Shown here: positions 5,940-11,421 of the stretch, in pieces | Position numbering within the stretch: the stretch's first letter is position 1 | Layout: the number at the start of each line of letters is the position of its first letter | Origin: Bacteroidota bacterium | GTDB lineage: Bacteria > Bacteroidota > Rhodothermia > Balneolales > Balneolaceae | Assembly (NCBI GenBank): GCA_024635465.1 | Contig: JAGXIS010000007.1 | Span: forward strand, 1-11,507 | Length of the DNA stretch: 11,507 nucleotides | Reading direction: 5' to 3' | Notes under the pieces: model-generated | What the model was told of the DNA's origin: nothing | The model's input: only the letters and a program-made list of their open reading frames with translations | The model's database searches: none | Translations under genes and position numbers: made by a program

Positions 5940-5965
5940 AAGCCGGTTATTGTCTCATAATATTT

Positions 5966-5999
5966 GGGGTTATTTAGAATCTTACCCCTACACTTTTTT
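5966..5999 (+). terminator. Possible weak terminator of era
   Basis: GGGGT (5966-5970) can pair with ACCCC (5984-5988), and a run of six T lies 5 bases further on. The stem has only five pairs and the loop is 13 bases, so this is a weak candidate, placed correctly 26 bases after the era stop. Confidence 0.35.
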
Positions 6000-6026
6000 A
6001 TGTAGCTGAAGGTTGTCCAATTTACA

Positions 6027-6095
6027 TTACTCATTTAAATTAACTTTAGACTTTAAGAATTCCGTTCTCAAGAGTCTACCTAAATTGATGAGTAA
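6027..6095. repeat. Long imperfect inverted repeat in the era-leader gap
   Basis: Four nested paired segments occur in order: TTACTCAT/ATGAGTAA (6027-6034 with 6088-6095), AATT/AATT (6038-6041 with 6083-6086), TAGACT/AGTCTA (6047-6052 with 6073-6078) and AGAA/TTCT (6056-6059 with 6065-6068). Together they make 22 pairs over 69 bases with small internal loops. There is no following T-tract and no ORF of note. It could be a folded RNA, an operator or a remnant of a small palindromic element; the sequence alone does not decide. The rest of 5940-6200 is AT-rich and shows no gene. Confidence 0.4.
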
Positions 6096-6200
6096 CCCGA
6101 GGAGATGATGATAGATTTTACAAAAATGATAAAAATAAAACCCTTTAAAACACATTAAAACGACACTTTTAAAAAAATTTAAAGGAAATGGAAAAAATAA

Positions 6201-6230
6201 TTGCATTATAATTCAAAAAGGGGTTATACT
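6201..6230 (+). promoter_or_regulatory. Likely promoter of the leader-met operon transcript
   Basis: TTGCAT (6201-6206) and TATACT (6225-6230) are separated by 18 bases, a good sigma-70-like pair preceded by a very AT-rich region. It also fits loosely with the Bacteroidota TTG/TA pattern. The expected transcription start falls within a few bases of the ATG at 6238, so the leader ORF would be leaderless or nearly so. An inverted repeat CCTTTAAA/TTTAAAGG (6142-6149 with 6178-6185) lies just upstream and might bind a regulator. Confidence 0.5.
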
Positions 6231-6237
6231 TTAATCA

Positions 6238-6294
6238 ATGAAAAATTCAGCCCTAAATATTATTTGTAAAATGTGTATGTGTTGTTGCACATAA
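6238..6294 (+). CDS. Cys/Met-rich leader peptide of a putative transcription attenuator
   Basis: This 18-codon ORF, MKNSALNIICKMCMCCCT, has five Cys and three Met residues. Codons 12-17 read Met-Cys-Met-Cys-Cys-Cys, a density very unlikely by chance in an AT-rich spacer. An in-frame TAA lies two codons upstream of the ATG, so the start is fixed unless an internal Met is used. There is no Shine-Dalgarno sequence, and the likely promoter places the mRNA 5' end at or near the ATG. Three bases after the stop lies AGAGGG (6298-6303), complementary to the left arm of the next terminator. The peptide itself probably has no function; translation speed through the Cys/Met codons would report charged tRNA levels and set termination upstream of the methionine genes. 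The interpretation is inference; the ORF and the pairing are seen directly. Confidence 0.68.
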   Translation: MKNSALNIICKMCMCCCT

Positions 6295-6297
6295 CAT

Positions 6298-6361
6298 AGA
6301 GGGATTGCTTTTTTTAGTTAAGAAATTGTAGAGCCCTCTGATATTCAGCAGGGCTTTTTTA
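6298..6361 (+). terminator. Attenuator: antiterminator segment and intrinsic terminator
   Basis: The terminator stem is AGCCCTCTGA (6332-6341) with TCAG-C-AGGGCT (6345-6355, one bulged C), loop TAT, followed by a run of T. The segment AGAGGG (6298-6303), just after the leader ORF stop, is perfectly complementary to CCCTCT (6334-6339) inside the left arm, so the two pairings exclude each other. A ribosome at the stop codon should cover bases to about 6304 and mask AGAGGG, letting the terminator form. A ribosome stalled at the Cys codons near 6280 would leave it free to antiterminate. Confidence 0.72.
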
Positions 6362-6402
6362 TTAACCGCTTTCTGCGGATTCGTTCTTTTAAAATTTTGA
6401 AT

Positions 6403-6542
6403 TCTTATCCAGAAAGGTGGAGGGACAGGCCCTGTGATACCTTAGCAACCGGTCCCGGCATATTTGTCGGGTTGTCAGGTGCTAAATCCTGCCCGTTACG
6501 AAATTGACTTTACAGTTGATCTCGTGATTGGGAAAGATGAGA
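6403..6542 (+). ncRNA. SAM-I (S-box) riboswitch aptamer
   Basis: The core is that of the S-box family: AGGTGGAGGGACAGGCCC, then GATACC, AGCAACC, and GGTGCTAAATCCTGCC (6475-6490 region). P1 forms between 6403-6409 and 6536-6542 (CTTATC with GATGAG). P3 is CCCGGC...GTCGGG. P4 is ACGAAATTGAC with GTTGATCTCGT (about 6498-6525), with one mismatch and two wobbles. It binds S-adenosylmethionine, and in this family binding turns the downstream genes off. It sits 44 bases after the attenuator T-tract, with no convincing promoter between, so it is probably read on the same transcript. Downstream is the methionine operon, as expected for this class. Confidence 0.95.
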
Positions 6543-6575
6543 TGCCAGGTACATTTGTGTATAGATCTATATAAC

Positions 6576-6628
6576 AAAAGCCTCTTCTTAAAATCTTTCC
6601 CACAGGATTTTTGGAAGAGGCTTTTTTT
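6576..6628 (+). terminator. Riboswitch expression platform: terminator with antiterminator
   Basis: The outer stem is AAAAGCCTCTTC (6576-6587) with GAAGAGGCTTTT (6614-6625). The inner stem is AAAATC (6590-6595) with GATTTT (6606-6611), followed by a run of seven T. The right strand of riboswitch P1, TGGGAAAGAT (6529-6538), is perfectly complementary over 10 bases to ATCTTTCCCA (6593-6602) within this hairpin. Without SAM that pairing competes with P1 and the terminator (genes on); with SAM, P1 holds its strand and the terminator forms (genes off). This is transcriptional control, not translational. Confidence 0.92.
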
Positions 6629-6735
6629 GTTTTAGGGTTTAGGAGTTGTCTTTATCATTGATTCCGAAACCAAACAGATAATCATAGATACACAAACCAT
6701 TGAGAAATACATTTAATAACTGGTACGATACCAAG

Positions 6736-7179
6736 ATGCGATCTACATCAGAGATCTCTGCTGAAACCGATGCAGTAGAGAAGGTTTTGGATGAAATCAA
6801 AACCATTGCCATCGTTGGAATCTCCAGAAACAGGCATAAAGACAGTAATTTTGTTGGTCGATATCTTCAAAATGCCGGTTACAAAATTATTCCAGTGAAT
6901 CCGGGAGCTGATGAGATTCTCGGCGAAAAAGCATATGCAGATCTTTCATCAATTCCTGAAAAAGTGGATGTGGTGGATATTTTCATCAAGCCCGAAGATG
7001 TGCCACAAATTGTAGATCAGGCACTGGAAATTAATCCGGTTGCAATCTGGCTTCAACTTGGGACCGGTGAACACCCTGAAGAGATGAAAAAAGCGAAGCA
7101 AGCGGGGGTCATGATGCTACAAAATCGGTGTATCAAGGTCGATCACCAATTTTTAATTCGAAACCGAAAGAAAAATTGA
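6736..7179 (+). CDS. CoA-binding-domain (YccU-like) Rossmann protein, first gene of the met operon
   Basis: This small single-domain protein (147 residues from the preferred ATG) belongs to the CoA_binding_2/YccU-like family, whose fold resembles the CoA-binding domain of succinyl-CoA synthetase. Visible features are TIAIVGISRNRHKDS with the dinucleotide-type loop (about residues 23-38), IIPVNPGADEILG, VDVVDIFIKPEDV, IWLQLGTGEHPEEM, and NRCIKVDHQ with the family's conserved Cys (residue 132). Catalytic activity is not established for the family. The frame opens at a TTG at 6700, but the ATG at 6736 gives the normal family start. It is the first cistron after the SAM riboswitch terminator and lies 76 bases before metY. 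A link to CoA or acetyl-CoA use by MetX is conceivable but only inferred. Confidence 0.85.
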   Translation: MRSTSEISAETDAVEKVLDEIKTIAIVGISRNRHKDSNFVGRYLQNAGYKIIPVNPGADEILGEKAYADLSSIPEKVDVVDIFIKPEDVPQIVDQALEINPVAIWLQLGTGEHPEEMKKAKQAGVMMLQNRCIKVDHQFLIRNRKKN

Positions 7180-7234: not shown

Positions 7235-8587
<1,353 letters not shown>

Positions 8588-8703: not shown

Positions 8704-9237
8704 ATGAGTATAGCAGAAACAACAATTTCAACGGAAAACGAAATACTTAAAAATAGTCTCTTGAACCTGATTAAAGGAATACAAGAAGATCCTGACAATG
8801 CAAATGCAACATTTAGGGCAAAATCAAAGCTGGAGGATGGGTTTTTGGCTGAGGTACAAACTCGTGATTTCAAATTTAAATCGGATGAACCCACTGATTT
8901 GGGTGGTACAGATCAGGGACCCAATCCGGTAGAGTATGTATTGGGCGCGTTTGCAGCTTGCCAGGAGATCGTCATCAAGGCATATGCAACTGTTCTTGAT
9001 ATTAACTTGAAATCTGTTTCCGTAGAGGTGGACGGACATCTGGATCTTCATGGATTTTTGAATCTTACAGATCAGCGTGCCGGTTTCACTTCATTAAATT
9101 ATAAAACAACCGTTGAAACAAACGAAAAAGACACTAAAAAACTTCAACTACTTGAAGAGCTATCTGTTACCAGATGTCCGGTTCTGGATATCATACAAAA
9201 TCCGGTTGAGGTCACCGGTAGTGTAACATATATATAG
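8704..9237 (+). CDS. OsmC/Ohr-family protein
   Basis: This 177-residue protein belongs to the OsmC fold, which includes thiol-dependent peroxide reductases and many uncharacterised relatives. Family marks are GGTDQGPNPVEYVLGAFAACQEIV with the first redox Cys (residue 86) on the central helix, and VTRCPVLDII with the second Cys (residue 158). The LGAFAACQ and C-P-V pattern is nearer the YhfA-like subgroup than Ohr. The N-terminal 30 residues are polar and helical. The open frame reaches a GTG at 8647, but the ATG at 8704 avoids translating through a hairpin and fits the family. Its place between metY and metX in a sulfur-regulated operon suggests a role in handling reactive sulfur, sulfide or homocysteine thiols rather than only peroxides. 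That role is inference. Confidence 0.88.
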   Translation: MSIAETTISTENEILKNSLLNLIKGIQEDPDNANATFRAKSKLEDGFLAEVQTRDFKFKSDEPTDLGGTDQGPNPVEYVLGAFAACQEIVIKAYATVLDINLKSVSVEVDGHLDLHGFLNLTDQRAGFTSLNYKTTVETNEKDTKKLQLLEELSVTRCPVLDIIQNPVEVTGSVTYI

Positions 9238-9300: not shown

Positions 9301-10338
9301 ATGAACCAGGGAATTTCAAAAACAGTACTAAATCAGTCATTCACTACTGAATCAGGTTTTGAGTTTCAGAAACCGGATGTAGCTTATAAAACATGGGGTA
9401 ATTTGAATGAAGCCCGGGATAATGTGATACTTATATGTCATGCTCTAACTGGTCATGCAGCGGCCGATGAGTGGTTCCCCGGTATTTTTGGTGAGAGTAG
9501 AATTTGTGACCCGGAAAAATATTTTATCATCTGTATTAATGTACCCGGAAGTTCATACGGTTCAATTGGTCCCTGGACAATCAACTCAAAAACCAATAAA
9601 CCCTACCGAAATGATTTTCCTCCGATTACGATACGGGACATGGTTCGATTTCAACAACATTTTCTGGATCAACTTGAAATAAAAGGTATTGAACTGGTGA
9701 TAGGCGGATCTCTTGGAGGTATGCAGGCATTGGAATTTGCCATTTTGGACGATAGGGTCAAATCTGCAGTACTTATCGCGATGAGCAAAGCTCACAGCCC
9801 TTGGGCGATTGGCATTAGTCATGCACAGCGAATGGCTATTAAATTGGATCCCAAATGGAATGACGGAAACTATGAAAAAGGGGAAGGCCCTGTTGAGGGC
9901 TTGGCGACTGCAAGAATGATGGCAATGATCACTTACCGTACGCCCGTCGATTATGAATCTAAATTTGGCAGGGATCTGCAGAACGGGAAAGAGCTGTATC
10001 AAGTTGAATCCTATTTAAACTATCAAGGAGATAAACTGGCCGGTAGATTTGATGCGCACTCCTACCTGAATTTGACTGAGGCGATGGATTCCCATGATGT
10101 ATCCAGGGGTCGTGGTTCATTTTTGGAAGTTTTACAAAATGTACAAGTACCGGTTAAAGTAGTGGGCATAGATAGCGATCACCTCTACCCTACTCATGAA
10201 CAGAAAGATTTAACCGCACTGCTTGACAATGCAACCTATAGTGAAATTCGTTCAACCTATGGTCATGACGCCTTTTTGATCGAATTTGAGCAGTTGAACT
10301 CAATTATTCAATCGTTTTTAGAAAAAAAAGTTAAATAA
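9301..10338 (+). CDS. metX: Homoserine O-acetyltransferase
   Basis: MetX transfers acetyl from acetyl-CoA to homoserine, making the substrate of MetY. The 345-residue alpha/beta-hydrolase has the complete triad: Ser137 in the nucleophile elbow GGSLGGMQALEF, Asp293 in GIDSDHLYPTHEQ and His322 in YGHDAFLIE. The oxyanion-side LICHALTGHA and the N(V/M)PGSSYGSIGP segment (residues 80-91) are also family features. The lid region with RTPVDYESKFGR is present. Some MetX-fold enzymes use succinyl-CoA; the pairing with a MetY-type sulfhydrylase favours acetyl. The start ATG at 9301 follows a strong hairpin. The gene is separated from the next by only 6 bases, so the two are translated from one mRNA. 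Confidence 0.94.
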   Translation: MNQGISKTVLNQSFTTESGFEFQKPDVAYKTWGNLNEARDNVILICHALTGHAAADEWFPGIFGESRICDPEKYFIICINVPGSSYGSIGPWTINSKTNKPYRNDFPPITIRDMVRFQQHFLDQLEIKGIELVIGGSLGGMQALEFAILDDRVKSAVLIAMSKAHSPWAIGISHAQRMAIKLDPKWNDGNYEKGEGPVEGLATARMMAMITYRTPVDYESKFGRDLQNGKELYQVESYLNYQGDKLAGRFDAHSYLNLTEAMDSHDVSRGRGSFLEVLQNVQVPVKVVGIDSDHLYPTHEQKDLTALLDNATYSEIRSTYGHDAFLIEFEQLNSIIQSFLEKKVK

Positions 10339-10344
10339 ATCATC

Positions 10345-11421
10345 ATGTCAGAATTGAAAGTGTACAAAAAACCTCTCGATAAGAAATCACCGCAAGTGAA
10401 GAAATTGTTTATAGCCGGCGTTGGTGCAGTTGGGAATACCCTATTGAAACAAGTCTCCAGGTATGGAACTGAAAAATCATTGCGTGTTTTAGGAGTTTGT
10501 AATAGCAATCATCTTTTATGGTACGATCGAGTACAGGGAAATTACTCACTCAGAGATCTTCTGCGTGCTCCTGATCTGGATTGGGAAAGTGTGATTCAGA
10601 AGTTAATATCTTATGAAAAAGGAAGTGTTGTATTTGTGGATACCACGGGTAGCTTAGAGATCGCTGAACTCTATCCAAGACTTCTTAAAAATCATATTCA
10701 CGTTGTAACACCCAGTAAACTTGCTAATACTCAAAAGCAAGATCAGTTTGATAACCTGCACCACATAGCTGCGGAGAATGGTGTAGAATTTTTATATGAA
10801 ACCAATGTTGGAGCTGGTCTGCCCATTATAAGTTCTATAAAAAATCTAATCCACACGGGTGATGAAATTCTTGAATTAAGTGGTGTACTTTCAGGAACTA
10901 TGACTTACCTCTTCTCTGAGTTGGATAAAGGAGGTACTTTTAGCGAGACCATCATCAAAGCGCGTCGACTTGGATATGCGGAGCCCGATCCCCGGGATGA
11001 TCTTTCCGGGGAAGACGTTGCAAGAAAGTTTATGATCTTAGCCCGTATTTGCGGTCACAAAATTGAGCGGGAAGAGTTAGAAGTTGAGTCACTCATACCG
11101 AAAGAACTACAAGACGTCGATTCTGCTGCCTTTCTTGAAAGAGTGAGTGAATTTGATGATGAGTGGACACGTAAATGTGAAGAGGCAAGTCTTGAAAATC
11201 GAACATTACGATATGTAGGACGCTATTATAAAGGTAAAGGCCAAATTGGAATTCAGGCTGTACCCATCTCATCTGCATTGGGTCAGCTCAAAGGCACCAC
11301 AAACCTGATCTCTATTCGATCACGAAGATACAACGATCAACCTTTGGTTATACAGGGACCCGGTGCAGGAAAAGAAGTGACGGCGGCCGGTGTTCTGGCG
11401 GATCTTCTAAGTATAAGTTAG
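10345..11421 (+). CDS. hom: Homoserine dehydrogenase (ThrA/MetL C-terminal type, stand-alone)
   Basis: This enzyme reduces aspartate semialdehyde to homoserine with NAD(P)H, supplying MetX. The 358 residues correspond to the dehydrogenase half of bifunctional aspartokinase-homoserine dehydrogenases, without the kinase and without an ACT domain. The Rossmann loop is AGVGAVG (24-30). VDTTGS (99-103) and TPSKLANT with Lys125 follow. The catalytic domain has YETNVGAGLP (151-160), GVLSGTMTYLFSEL (180-192) and GYAEPDPRDDLSGEDVARK (210-228) with the acidic and Lys residues of the active site. The C-terminal GPGAGKEVTAAGVLADLL returns to the nucleotide domain. It is the last gene of the methionine operon. 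The missing regulatory domain suggests that control is at the RNA level here. Confidence 0.94.
   Translation: MSELKVYKKPLDKKSPQVKKLFIAGVGAVGNTLLKQVSRYGTEKSLRVLGVCNSNHLLWYDRVQGNYSLRDLLRAPDLDWESVIQKLISYEKGSVVFVDTTGSLEIAELYPRLLKNHIHVVTPSKLANTQKQDQFDNLHHIAAENGVEFLYETNVGAGLPIISSIKNLIHTGDEILELSGVLSGTMTYLFSELDKGGTFSETIIKARRLGYAEPDPRDDLSGEDVARKFMILARICGHKIEREELEVESLIPKELQDVDSAAFLERVSEFDDEWTRKCEEASLENRTLRYVGRYYKGKGQIGIQAVPISSALGQLKGTTNLISIRSRRYNDQPLVIQGPGAGKEVTAAGVLADLLSIS

Follow-up and report, generated by a model that had tools for sequence, protein, structure and literature searches.

A Cys/Met-rich leader ORF as a probable ribosome-mediated transcription attenuator in series with the SAM-I riboswitch of the Balneolaceae metY operon

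Why a methionine operon that already carries a SAM-I riboswitch should also be preceded by a short ORF crowded with Cys and Met codons is the question raised by the locus described here. The window, which is the whole stretch of 11,507 nucleotides that was analysed (contig JAGXIS010000007.1 of assembly GCA_024635465.1), is part of a genome that is 62.5% complete and has the gene order era, leader, SAM-I riboswitch, CoA-binding protein, metY, osmC-like, metX and homoserine dehydrogenase (Table 1). Among named matches of the CoA-binding gene a Bacteroidetes MAG is the closest (97% identity); Balneolaceae MAGs come next and, lower down, Fodinibius and Gracilimonas strains. An initial annotation, made from the letters of this DNA, had described an 18-codon ORF whose codons 12-17 are Met-Cys-Met-Cys-Cys-Cys, an AGAGGG segment behind it and a terminator containing the complement CCCTCT, and had read them as a putative Cys/Met attenuator; every coordinate proved correct when the sequence was read again, and the reading itself is supported by conservation of the ORF and by covariation of AGAGGG with CCCTCT. 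The leader is unnamed by Rfam, as RF00162 (SAM) was the sole entry for the window in a search at E up to 1, at which no T-box matched either. We conclude that the leader is very probably a ribosome-mediated transcription attenuator which would sense a shortage of charged Cys-tRNA, and probably of Met-tRNA, in series with the SAM-I riboswitch.

Table 1. Features of the leader and the operon, with positions in the window
Feature	Position	Strand	Basis or remark
Predicted -35 element TTGCAT	6201..6206	+	TTG-TANNNT spacing across loci
Predicted -10 element TATACT	6225..6230	+	7 nt before ATG
Leader ORF MKNSALNIICKMCMCCCT	6238..6294	+	18 codons plus stop
Segment A, start region and first codons	6239..6254	+	Minimum-energy fold; A:C swap tests
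Segment B AGAGGG, antiterminator arm	6298..6303	+	B:E swap tests, pair types
Segment C, partner of start region	6310..6316	+	Fold and swap tests
Intrinsic terminator	6330..6360	+	Left arm (E) contains CCCTCT 6334-6339
boxA-like element GTTCTTTTA	6383..6391	+	GTTCTTT core before aptamer
SAM-I riboswitch aptamer	6402..6543	+	RF00162, 73.7 bits vs gathering score 44.4
Riboswitch antiterminator	6530..6601	+	GGGAAAGAT 6530-6538 can pair with ATCTTTCCC 6593-6601; duplex energy -16.5
Second intrinsic terminator, SAM-I expression platform	6576..6628	+	Fold of 6571-6632, -26.2
CoA-binding-domain protein, operon gene 1	6736..7179	+	Partial acetate--CoA ligase model matches, all below cut-offs
metY, O-acetylhomoserine sulfhydrylase	7256..8587	+	TIGR01326, above cut-off
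OsmC-like protein	8704..9237	+	Slightly below NF041052 cut-off
metX, homoserine O-acetyltransferase	9301..10338	+	NF001209, above cut-off
Homoserine dehydrogenase	10345..11421	+	Best matches are homoserine dehydrogenase models, below cut-offs

Among first-order Markov shuffles of 5940-6401, 1/5000 yields an ORF of 10-40 codons containing five or more Cys and two or more internal Met, by a criterion that was fixed only after the ORF had been seen, and comparative conservation is the stronger evidence. The initial annotation had asked for conservation of the ORF and its Cys/Met codons in close relatives, and both are conserved, in the family and in four further families. A search with RF00162 of 92 family genomes found at least one site in 82 of them, 104 sites in total, all of which were retrieved, and at 74 of these 104 a Cys/Met-rich ORF has its stop beginning 75-160 nt before the aptamer. 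All 74 family leaders precede metY. The remaining 30 sites comprise 22 before a metH-type gene, none of which has the leader, and eight before metY without one; of the 22 metH-type genes one was scanned (L036, which matches MetH) and the other 21 were assigned by eye from their first residues. The eight exceptions fall in genera g19 and g9 and at locus L046, so the leader is dispensable in some lineages. The six loci of genus g19 (L065, L073, L075, L077, L084 and L091) belong to genomes of 1.6-2.6 Mb that keep era, SAM-I and metY without the leader, and five of the six retain the boxA-like core.

Beyond the family, a class-wide search covered 244 genomes and 80 upstream stretches outside the family were read. 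Inspected by eye, 25 of the 27 sites from families f2-f5, which belong to the same order, carry a leader, with peptides that are quite different and still Cys/Met-rich. Under one fixed automatic criterion the leader is called at 73/74 leader sites, 0/22 metH-type sites and 0/8 other sites of the family, at 18/27 order sites, at 1/53 sites in the other families of the class and at 2/65 sites elsewhere in the phylum, the last being 40 sites picked for spread and the 25 best-scoring ones. Outside the class, locus L363 of family f27, one of these last two positives, has a Cys/Met leader, MKIQIKNTSGKLNMAMCMCCMCNIGPR, and a terminator-like hairpin before its SAM-I riboswitch, which may reflect either shared origin or convergence.

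Structural comparisons were made on 94 loci, 74 from the family and 20 from the order, with start codons set by a scoring rule in the family and by eye in the order, and with the terminator of L043 set by hand, as the automatic call was wrong. Order loci L166, L168, L177, L186 and L146, which have a leader and no intrinsic terminator by the rule used, were left out. Across the 94 leaders 18.9% of the residues after the start are Cys and 13.8% are Met, the two are crowded into codons 2-14 before the stop, and at least two Cys are present in 93/94 and at least two additional Met in 85/94; the short ORF is enriched in the codons of the amino acids that would be regulated. The peptides themselves are highly diverse between families, as seen in MKKVMSMSMSMMSCLGG (L175), MIFAYAYMALCCMSCHRR, MKQIATLISCCMCCMRESHTA and MKLIRQNINSSCVIMCCMCMCVAQT. 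Differences at codon positions 1/2/3 are 0.31/0.35/0.39 in g1, 0.15/0.23/0.23 in g4, 0.21/0.27/0.24 in g2, 0.40/0.36/0.44 in f5 and 0.34/0.22/0.41 in g3, where the third positions are more variable than the second, so that some peptide constraint is possible there. Outside g3 these figures show little constraint on the peptide, as would be expected if codon identity counts rather than the peptide. Sensing of Met, for which codon content is the evidence, is less certain than sensing of Cys, and the Met codons could partly be internal starts.

The terminator of the window has a stem of 6330-6337/6350-6357 and a T-run at 6355-6360, and the initial annotation had proposed that AGAGGG (B) competes for its left arm (E) and that the two should change in step among relatives, which they do. 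In a swap test, in which the pairing energy of each locus's own B and E is compared with that of partners exchanged between loci, the 94 loci have a mean of -15.02 against -11.72 for swapped partners (sd 0.25), a value reached in 0/5000 swaps, and against -14.58 (sd 0.11) for swaps within groups, where it is reached in 1/5000. Reversed-sequence controls of the 94 loci attain the own value in 357/5000 of all swaps and 669/5000 within groups. When the true sequences of the family are taken by themselves (74 loci), the own value is reached by 58/5000 swaps within groups. Six B:E pairs were tabulated in 90 loci, four of the 94 not being anchorable, and standard pairs fill 486 of the 540 cells, with exchanges on both sides at pair 1 (GC 64, AT 8, TA 3), pair 5 (AT 38, GC 31, GT 13) and pair 6 (AT 34, GC 24), the last being non-standard in 24/90 loci. 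Covariation supports an antiterminator and an intrinsic terminator that exclude one another in these loci, with the five order loci above lacking the terminator. Inspection of some genera had suggested one more hairpin (C:D), within the linker that separates B from the terminator, but over the 94 loci it is unsupported (mean z -0.42).

The proposed geometry, in which a ribosome that has finished the ORF masks AGAGGG and a stalled one leaves it free, also fits the 94 loci. For an assumed footprint that puts the edge of a ribosome on the stop at stop+12, all of B is covered in 88/94 loci and at least half in 94/94, while B stays free with 611 of the 650 Cys/Met codons placed in the A site. The search admitted a start of B anywhere from 24 nt before to 28 nt after the first base of the stop, and the starts that it found range from 11 nt before that base to 8 nt after it. 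In the window a transcript ending at 6344 forms B:E, and when the stalled state is folded from B onward the equilibrium structure is still the terminator; the antiterminator is the fold only while the right arm (F) has not yet been made, and the switch must therefore be kinetic.

A second pairing concerns the leader when it is not translated, as the untranslated leader of the window folds 6239-6254 against 6300-6316 (B and C) with the terminator formed. Over the 94 loci A:C has an energy of -7.65 against -6.28 for within-group swaps (sd 0.17), reached in 0/5000, with a reversed-sequence control that is itself somewhat low (86/5000 for all swaps, 242/5000 within groups). A:C reaches -6 kcal/mol in 55/94 loci, in 43 of which it takes in two or more bases of the start codon, and the pairing is present in 17/23 loci of g1, 12/12 of g3 and 12/12 of f5. 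None of the 28 loci of g2, g4, g6, g8, g11, g13, g21 and f4 reaches -6 kcal/mol, so a lock on the untranslated state is not general, and these comparisons lend it support in some lineages only.

A predicted promoter lies close to the leader ORF. In 53/99 loci the distance from the end of a TANNNT element to the leader start codon is exactly 7 nt, and in 68/94 it is 5-8 nt, against 23/94 reversed controls, and when a TTG 16-19 nt further upstream is also demanded 66/94 loci comply, the window included, against 0/94 reversed; the spacing does not fit in g3, g7, g10, g16 and f5. From this conserved spacing the leader ORF is probably leaderless, with a predicted transcription start at 6237/6238 in the window. 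A sigma-70 scan missed the window's predicted promoter because TTGCAT is a poor match to TTGACA.

Between the first terminator and the aptamer lies a boxA-like element, whose GTTCTTT core is found at most 60 nt before the aptamer in 72/74 leader loci, all but one of the 72 having it at -16 to -23, for a chance expectation of about 0.005 per 60 nt. The core also precedes 7/8 metY sites without a leader and 0/22 metH-type sites. The family's rRNA loci (nine, from 8 genomes) have an identical core 84-151 nt before 16S in 7/9 and, in 8/8 of those that reach far enough, 1905-2066 nt past the 16S start, where the 16S-23S spacer presumably lies; we take this core to be the rRNA boxA of the group. In the wider phylum GTTCTTT lies directly before the SAM-I aptamer in 39/65 sites, independent of a leader, and so it is the riboswitch, not the leader, to which the element belongs. 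In four f2 loci, L166, L168, L177 and L186, the leader ORF ends near the boxA-like core with no intrinsic terminator by the rule used, and the start region still pairs with sequence just before the core. The literature, in the parts available, links boxA to rRNA, phage nut sites and suhB, and a literature search by title or abstract opening found no paper joining boxA to a SAM riboswitch.

The SAM-I platform has an intrinsic terminator of its own at its end, so the two gates would lie one behind the other, and low charged tRNA and low SAM are both predicted to be necessary for expression. This bears on the initial claim that a shortage of either Met or Cys turns the operon on: with SAM high, a Cys shortage alone should not do so, as the SAM-I terminator follows in series. 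The Met codons of the leader make sense in this arrangement, since a Met shortage must open the first gate too. The operon behind the gates, with metY, metX and homoserine dehydrogenase, serves the amino acids that would be sensed.

Leaders of the same design occur at a second locus. The MCMC-codon pattern ATGTGYATGTGY has 172 matches in the 92 genomes against 96 for its reversed control, and as it is held by 40/74 metY leaders and 8/18 retrieved second leaders much of this excess is already explained; the first 30 matches retrieved contain 12 leaders, eight of the metY type and four of the second type. Matches in genus g3 led to this second Cys/Met leader, which stands ahead of genes for a sulfurtransferase and for an assimilatory sulfite reductase. 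The sulfurtransferase is found at E up to 1e-60 in 53/155 class genomes, and the second leader is present in 18/18 retrieved family loci (L306-L323), the window's own genome included, with the family sites outside the 18 being a second site in G016 and one in G104. In the window's genome (L319, G000:C54, upstream of 10108) it reads MNNQFLNFTICTMMCICMSMMCCMCICMRKDSGRKIIG, with GATAGTGGG against CCCACTATC. Own pairs of the second leader have an energy of -17.42 against -16.09 for swapped pairs (sd 0.33; 1/5000), and the frame in which its B segment is read changes between genomes, some giving ...GSG... and others ...KVVE..., which argues against a peptide function. At L308 the automatic frame was wrong and the Cys-rich frame was seen on reading the sequence. 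Five second-leader loci gave no Rfam match above gathering score. That a second, unrelated sulfur operon has the same design counts in favour of attenuation.

Between the second terminator and the sulfurtransferase start many of L306-L323 have, by eye, complementary CTTTGTG ... CACAAAG segments, which may be a further RNA element. Among more distant sulfurtransferase homologues, seven of f16 have no Cys-rich ORF and four of five of f18 have one further upstream; the latter (L332, L333, L334 and L335) are short, Cys-rich and not Met-rich, and lie 246-387 nt upstream of the sulfurtransferase, followed at L333 and L334 by a terminator-like hairpin by eye. Searches of 30 relatives gave matches for cysE in 30/30, many weak and none above cut-off, and for CBS in 30/30, nine above cut-off.

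We propose the following model for the leader in the context of the transcribing polymerase, in which translation, stalling, termination and NusB binding are what we infer from the ORF, the pairings and their covariation, the geometry, the promoter spacing, the aptamer and the boxA-like core as read in the sequence. The transcript would begin with the leader ATG or a base beside it, and a ribosome would load on its 5' end. When Cys and Met codons are freely read, the ribosome would arrive at the stop and cover B, allowing the E:F terminator to form, and the operon would be off. When charged tRNA is short, the ribosome would stall at the Cys/Met codons, leaving B free to pair with E before F is made, and the polymerase would pass the first gate. 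If the leader is not translated at all, the start region could pair with B/C and the terminator would again form. The polymerase would next pass the boxA-like element, likely loading NusB/S10, and would then meet the SAM-I terminator, which would open only at low SAM. Transcription of metY, osmC, metX and homoserine dehydrogenase would follow only once both gates are open.

Other readings of the same locus account for parts of these observations. The ORF could encode a small Cys/Met-rich protein with a function of its own, such as the binding of metal, with the hairpin merely its terminator, and its conservation with many Cys and Met and some third-position excess in g3 would agree with this. 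Such a protein would hardly differ so greatly in sequence between families, however, nor would its three codon positions be expected to differ at broadly similar rates, as they do in g1, g4, g2 and f5; the terminator arm, moreover, covaries with a segment overlapping or just past the stop, and the second leader's B segment lies in different frames in different genomes, and we give this reading very little weight. Equally concerned with the peptide is the idea that stalling is triggered by a metal or by a thiol or oxidant bound by the nascent Cys/Met-rich chain, rather than by uncharged tRNA. Cys-rich upstream ORFs linked to copper genes have precedent, and MCMC-type motifs would bind soft metals, but both leader-bearing operons concern sulfur assimilation, and Cys and Met keep to no fixed spacing or order, with the peptide of L175 given above as the extreme, which makes this trigger very unlikely.

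The hairpin might instead be the transcription terminator of era, the ORF and its complementarity being incidental. This has next to nothing to recommend it: era does lie upstream in the window and in 28/74 family leader loci, but it was not found upstream in the other 46 (1500 nt examined in 73 loci, 229 nt in one), a predicted promoter separates it from the hairpin, and the ORF and the pairing are conserved. Finally, the leader could act mainly through Rho and boxA, its translation controlling Rho loading or the accessibility of boxA, with the intrinsic terminator secondary, which we regard as unlikely. It would suit the f2 loci without an intrinsic terminator, which keep their start-region pairing just before the boxA-like core and three of which, out of four, pair better with their own partner than with any swapped one, and boxA-like cores occur with or without a leader. 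Against these stand the 94 loci in which B:E and E:F are present, while the other type amounts to four loci, in one of which a swapped partner pairs better than the own one. Attenuation by a ribosome reading Cys and probably Met codons remains the reading that we favour. A wider joint reading, to which we lean only tentatively and at somewhat less than even confidence, would have a regulon of attenuators that read Cys and Met codons together, the Met codons being true sensors; its metY member would be three-layered, with a leaderless ORF whose start region is locked by RNA that follows it, a boxA for NusB/S10 and a SAM-I riboswitch, and the f2 lineage without the intrinsic terminator would work through boxA/Rho.

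The kind of attenuator proposed here is already known and its occurrence in this phylum has been suggested before, as far as the available parts of the sources cited below go. Like the classical trp, his and thr attenuators it has a short codon-rich ORF, a mutually exclusive antiterminator and terminator, the position of the ribosome as the switch and a biosynthetic operon downstream; unlike them it combines Cys and Met codons, is probably leaderless, would have its start region in the lock and stands in series with a boxA-like element and SAM-I. Leader-peptide systems were described in Proteobacteria and Actinobacteria, with Firmicutes added in 2010 (PMC2965389), and leader genes in Bacteroidetes and other groups are treated in another context in PMC4833913. 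In Flavobacterium psychrophilum there are strong clues to leader-peptide attenuation before amino-acid biosynthesis operons (PMC9723704) and in Bacteroides thetaiotaomicron short ORFs in long 5' UTRs resemble leader peptides (PMC7366714); the available parts of these two accounts name neither a Cys/Met leader nor a SAM riboswitch in series.

The nearest parallels for Cys are the leaderless polycysteine short ORFs of mycobacteria (Canestrari 2020, cited in PMC9031893; also cited in PMC9094748), which are described as giving Cys-responsive attenuation of a downstream operon. The present ORF is likewise short and Cys-rich, and is probably leaderless, but the mycobacterial ORFs are said to regulate downstream translation, whereas here an intrinsic terminator, found in 94 loci, is combined with a covarying antiterminator, added Met codons and SAM-I in series. 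In Actinobacteria, Cys leaders have been predicted upstream of cys or cbs operons as short ORFs in which Cys codons follow one another in runs (Seliverstov 2005, PMC1262725), and the available part of that study, unlike our comparison, reports no conserved terminators. The Xanthomonas SAM-I riboswitch also senses uncharged initiator tRNA, and so likewise joins SAM and Met-tRNA charging for a met operon, but does so, in the part of the account available, in one RNA that acts mainly on translation and binds the tRNA directly (PMC7270179). In the Salmonella mgtCBR leader two short ORFs form tandem attenuators thought to control structures and transcription, in response to signals other than those of the present leader (PMC3641672, as far as available). 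For the combination of Cys and Met, a probable leaderless start, stacking on boxA and SAM-I, and covariation support, a literature search that covered few subscription papers found no prior description.

Under this model the list of amino acids that leader-peptide attenuators with an intrinsic terminator sense would grow by Cys, and perhaps by Met, and there would be a firmly supported case in a branch of the Bacteroidota where such control had only been suggested. The model would also account for the extra control on metY, and not on the metH-type gene, beside the same class of riboswitch, and would describe a natural two-gate circuit of tRNA charging and SAM. Furthermore, leaderless initiation, boxA and attenuation could be dissected together within a single short leader. 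Finally, the boxA-like element that recurs before SAM-I aptamers across the phylum is testable by itself.
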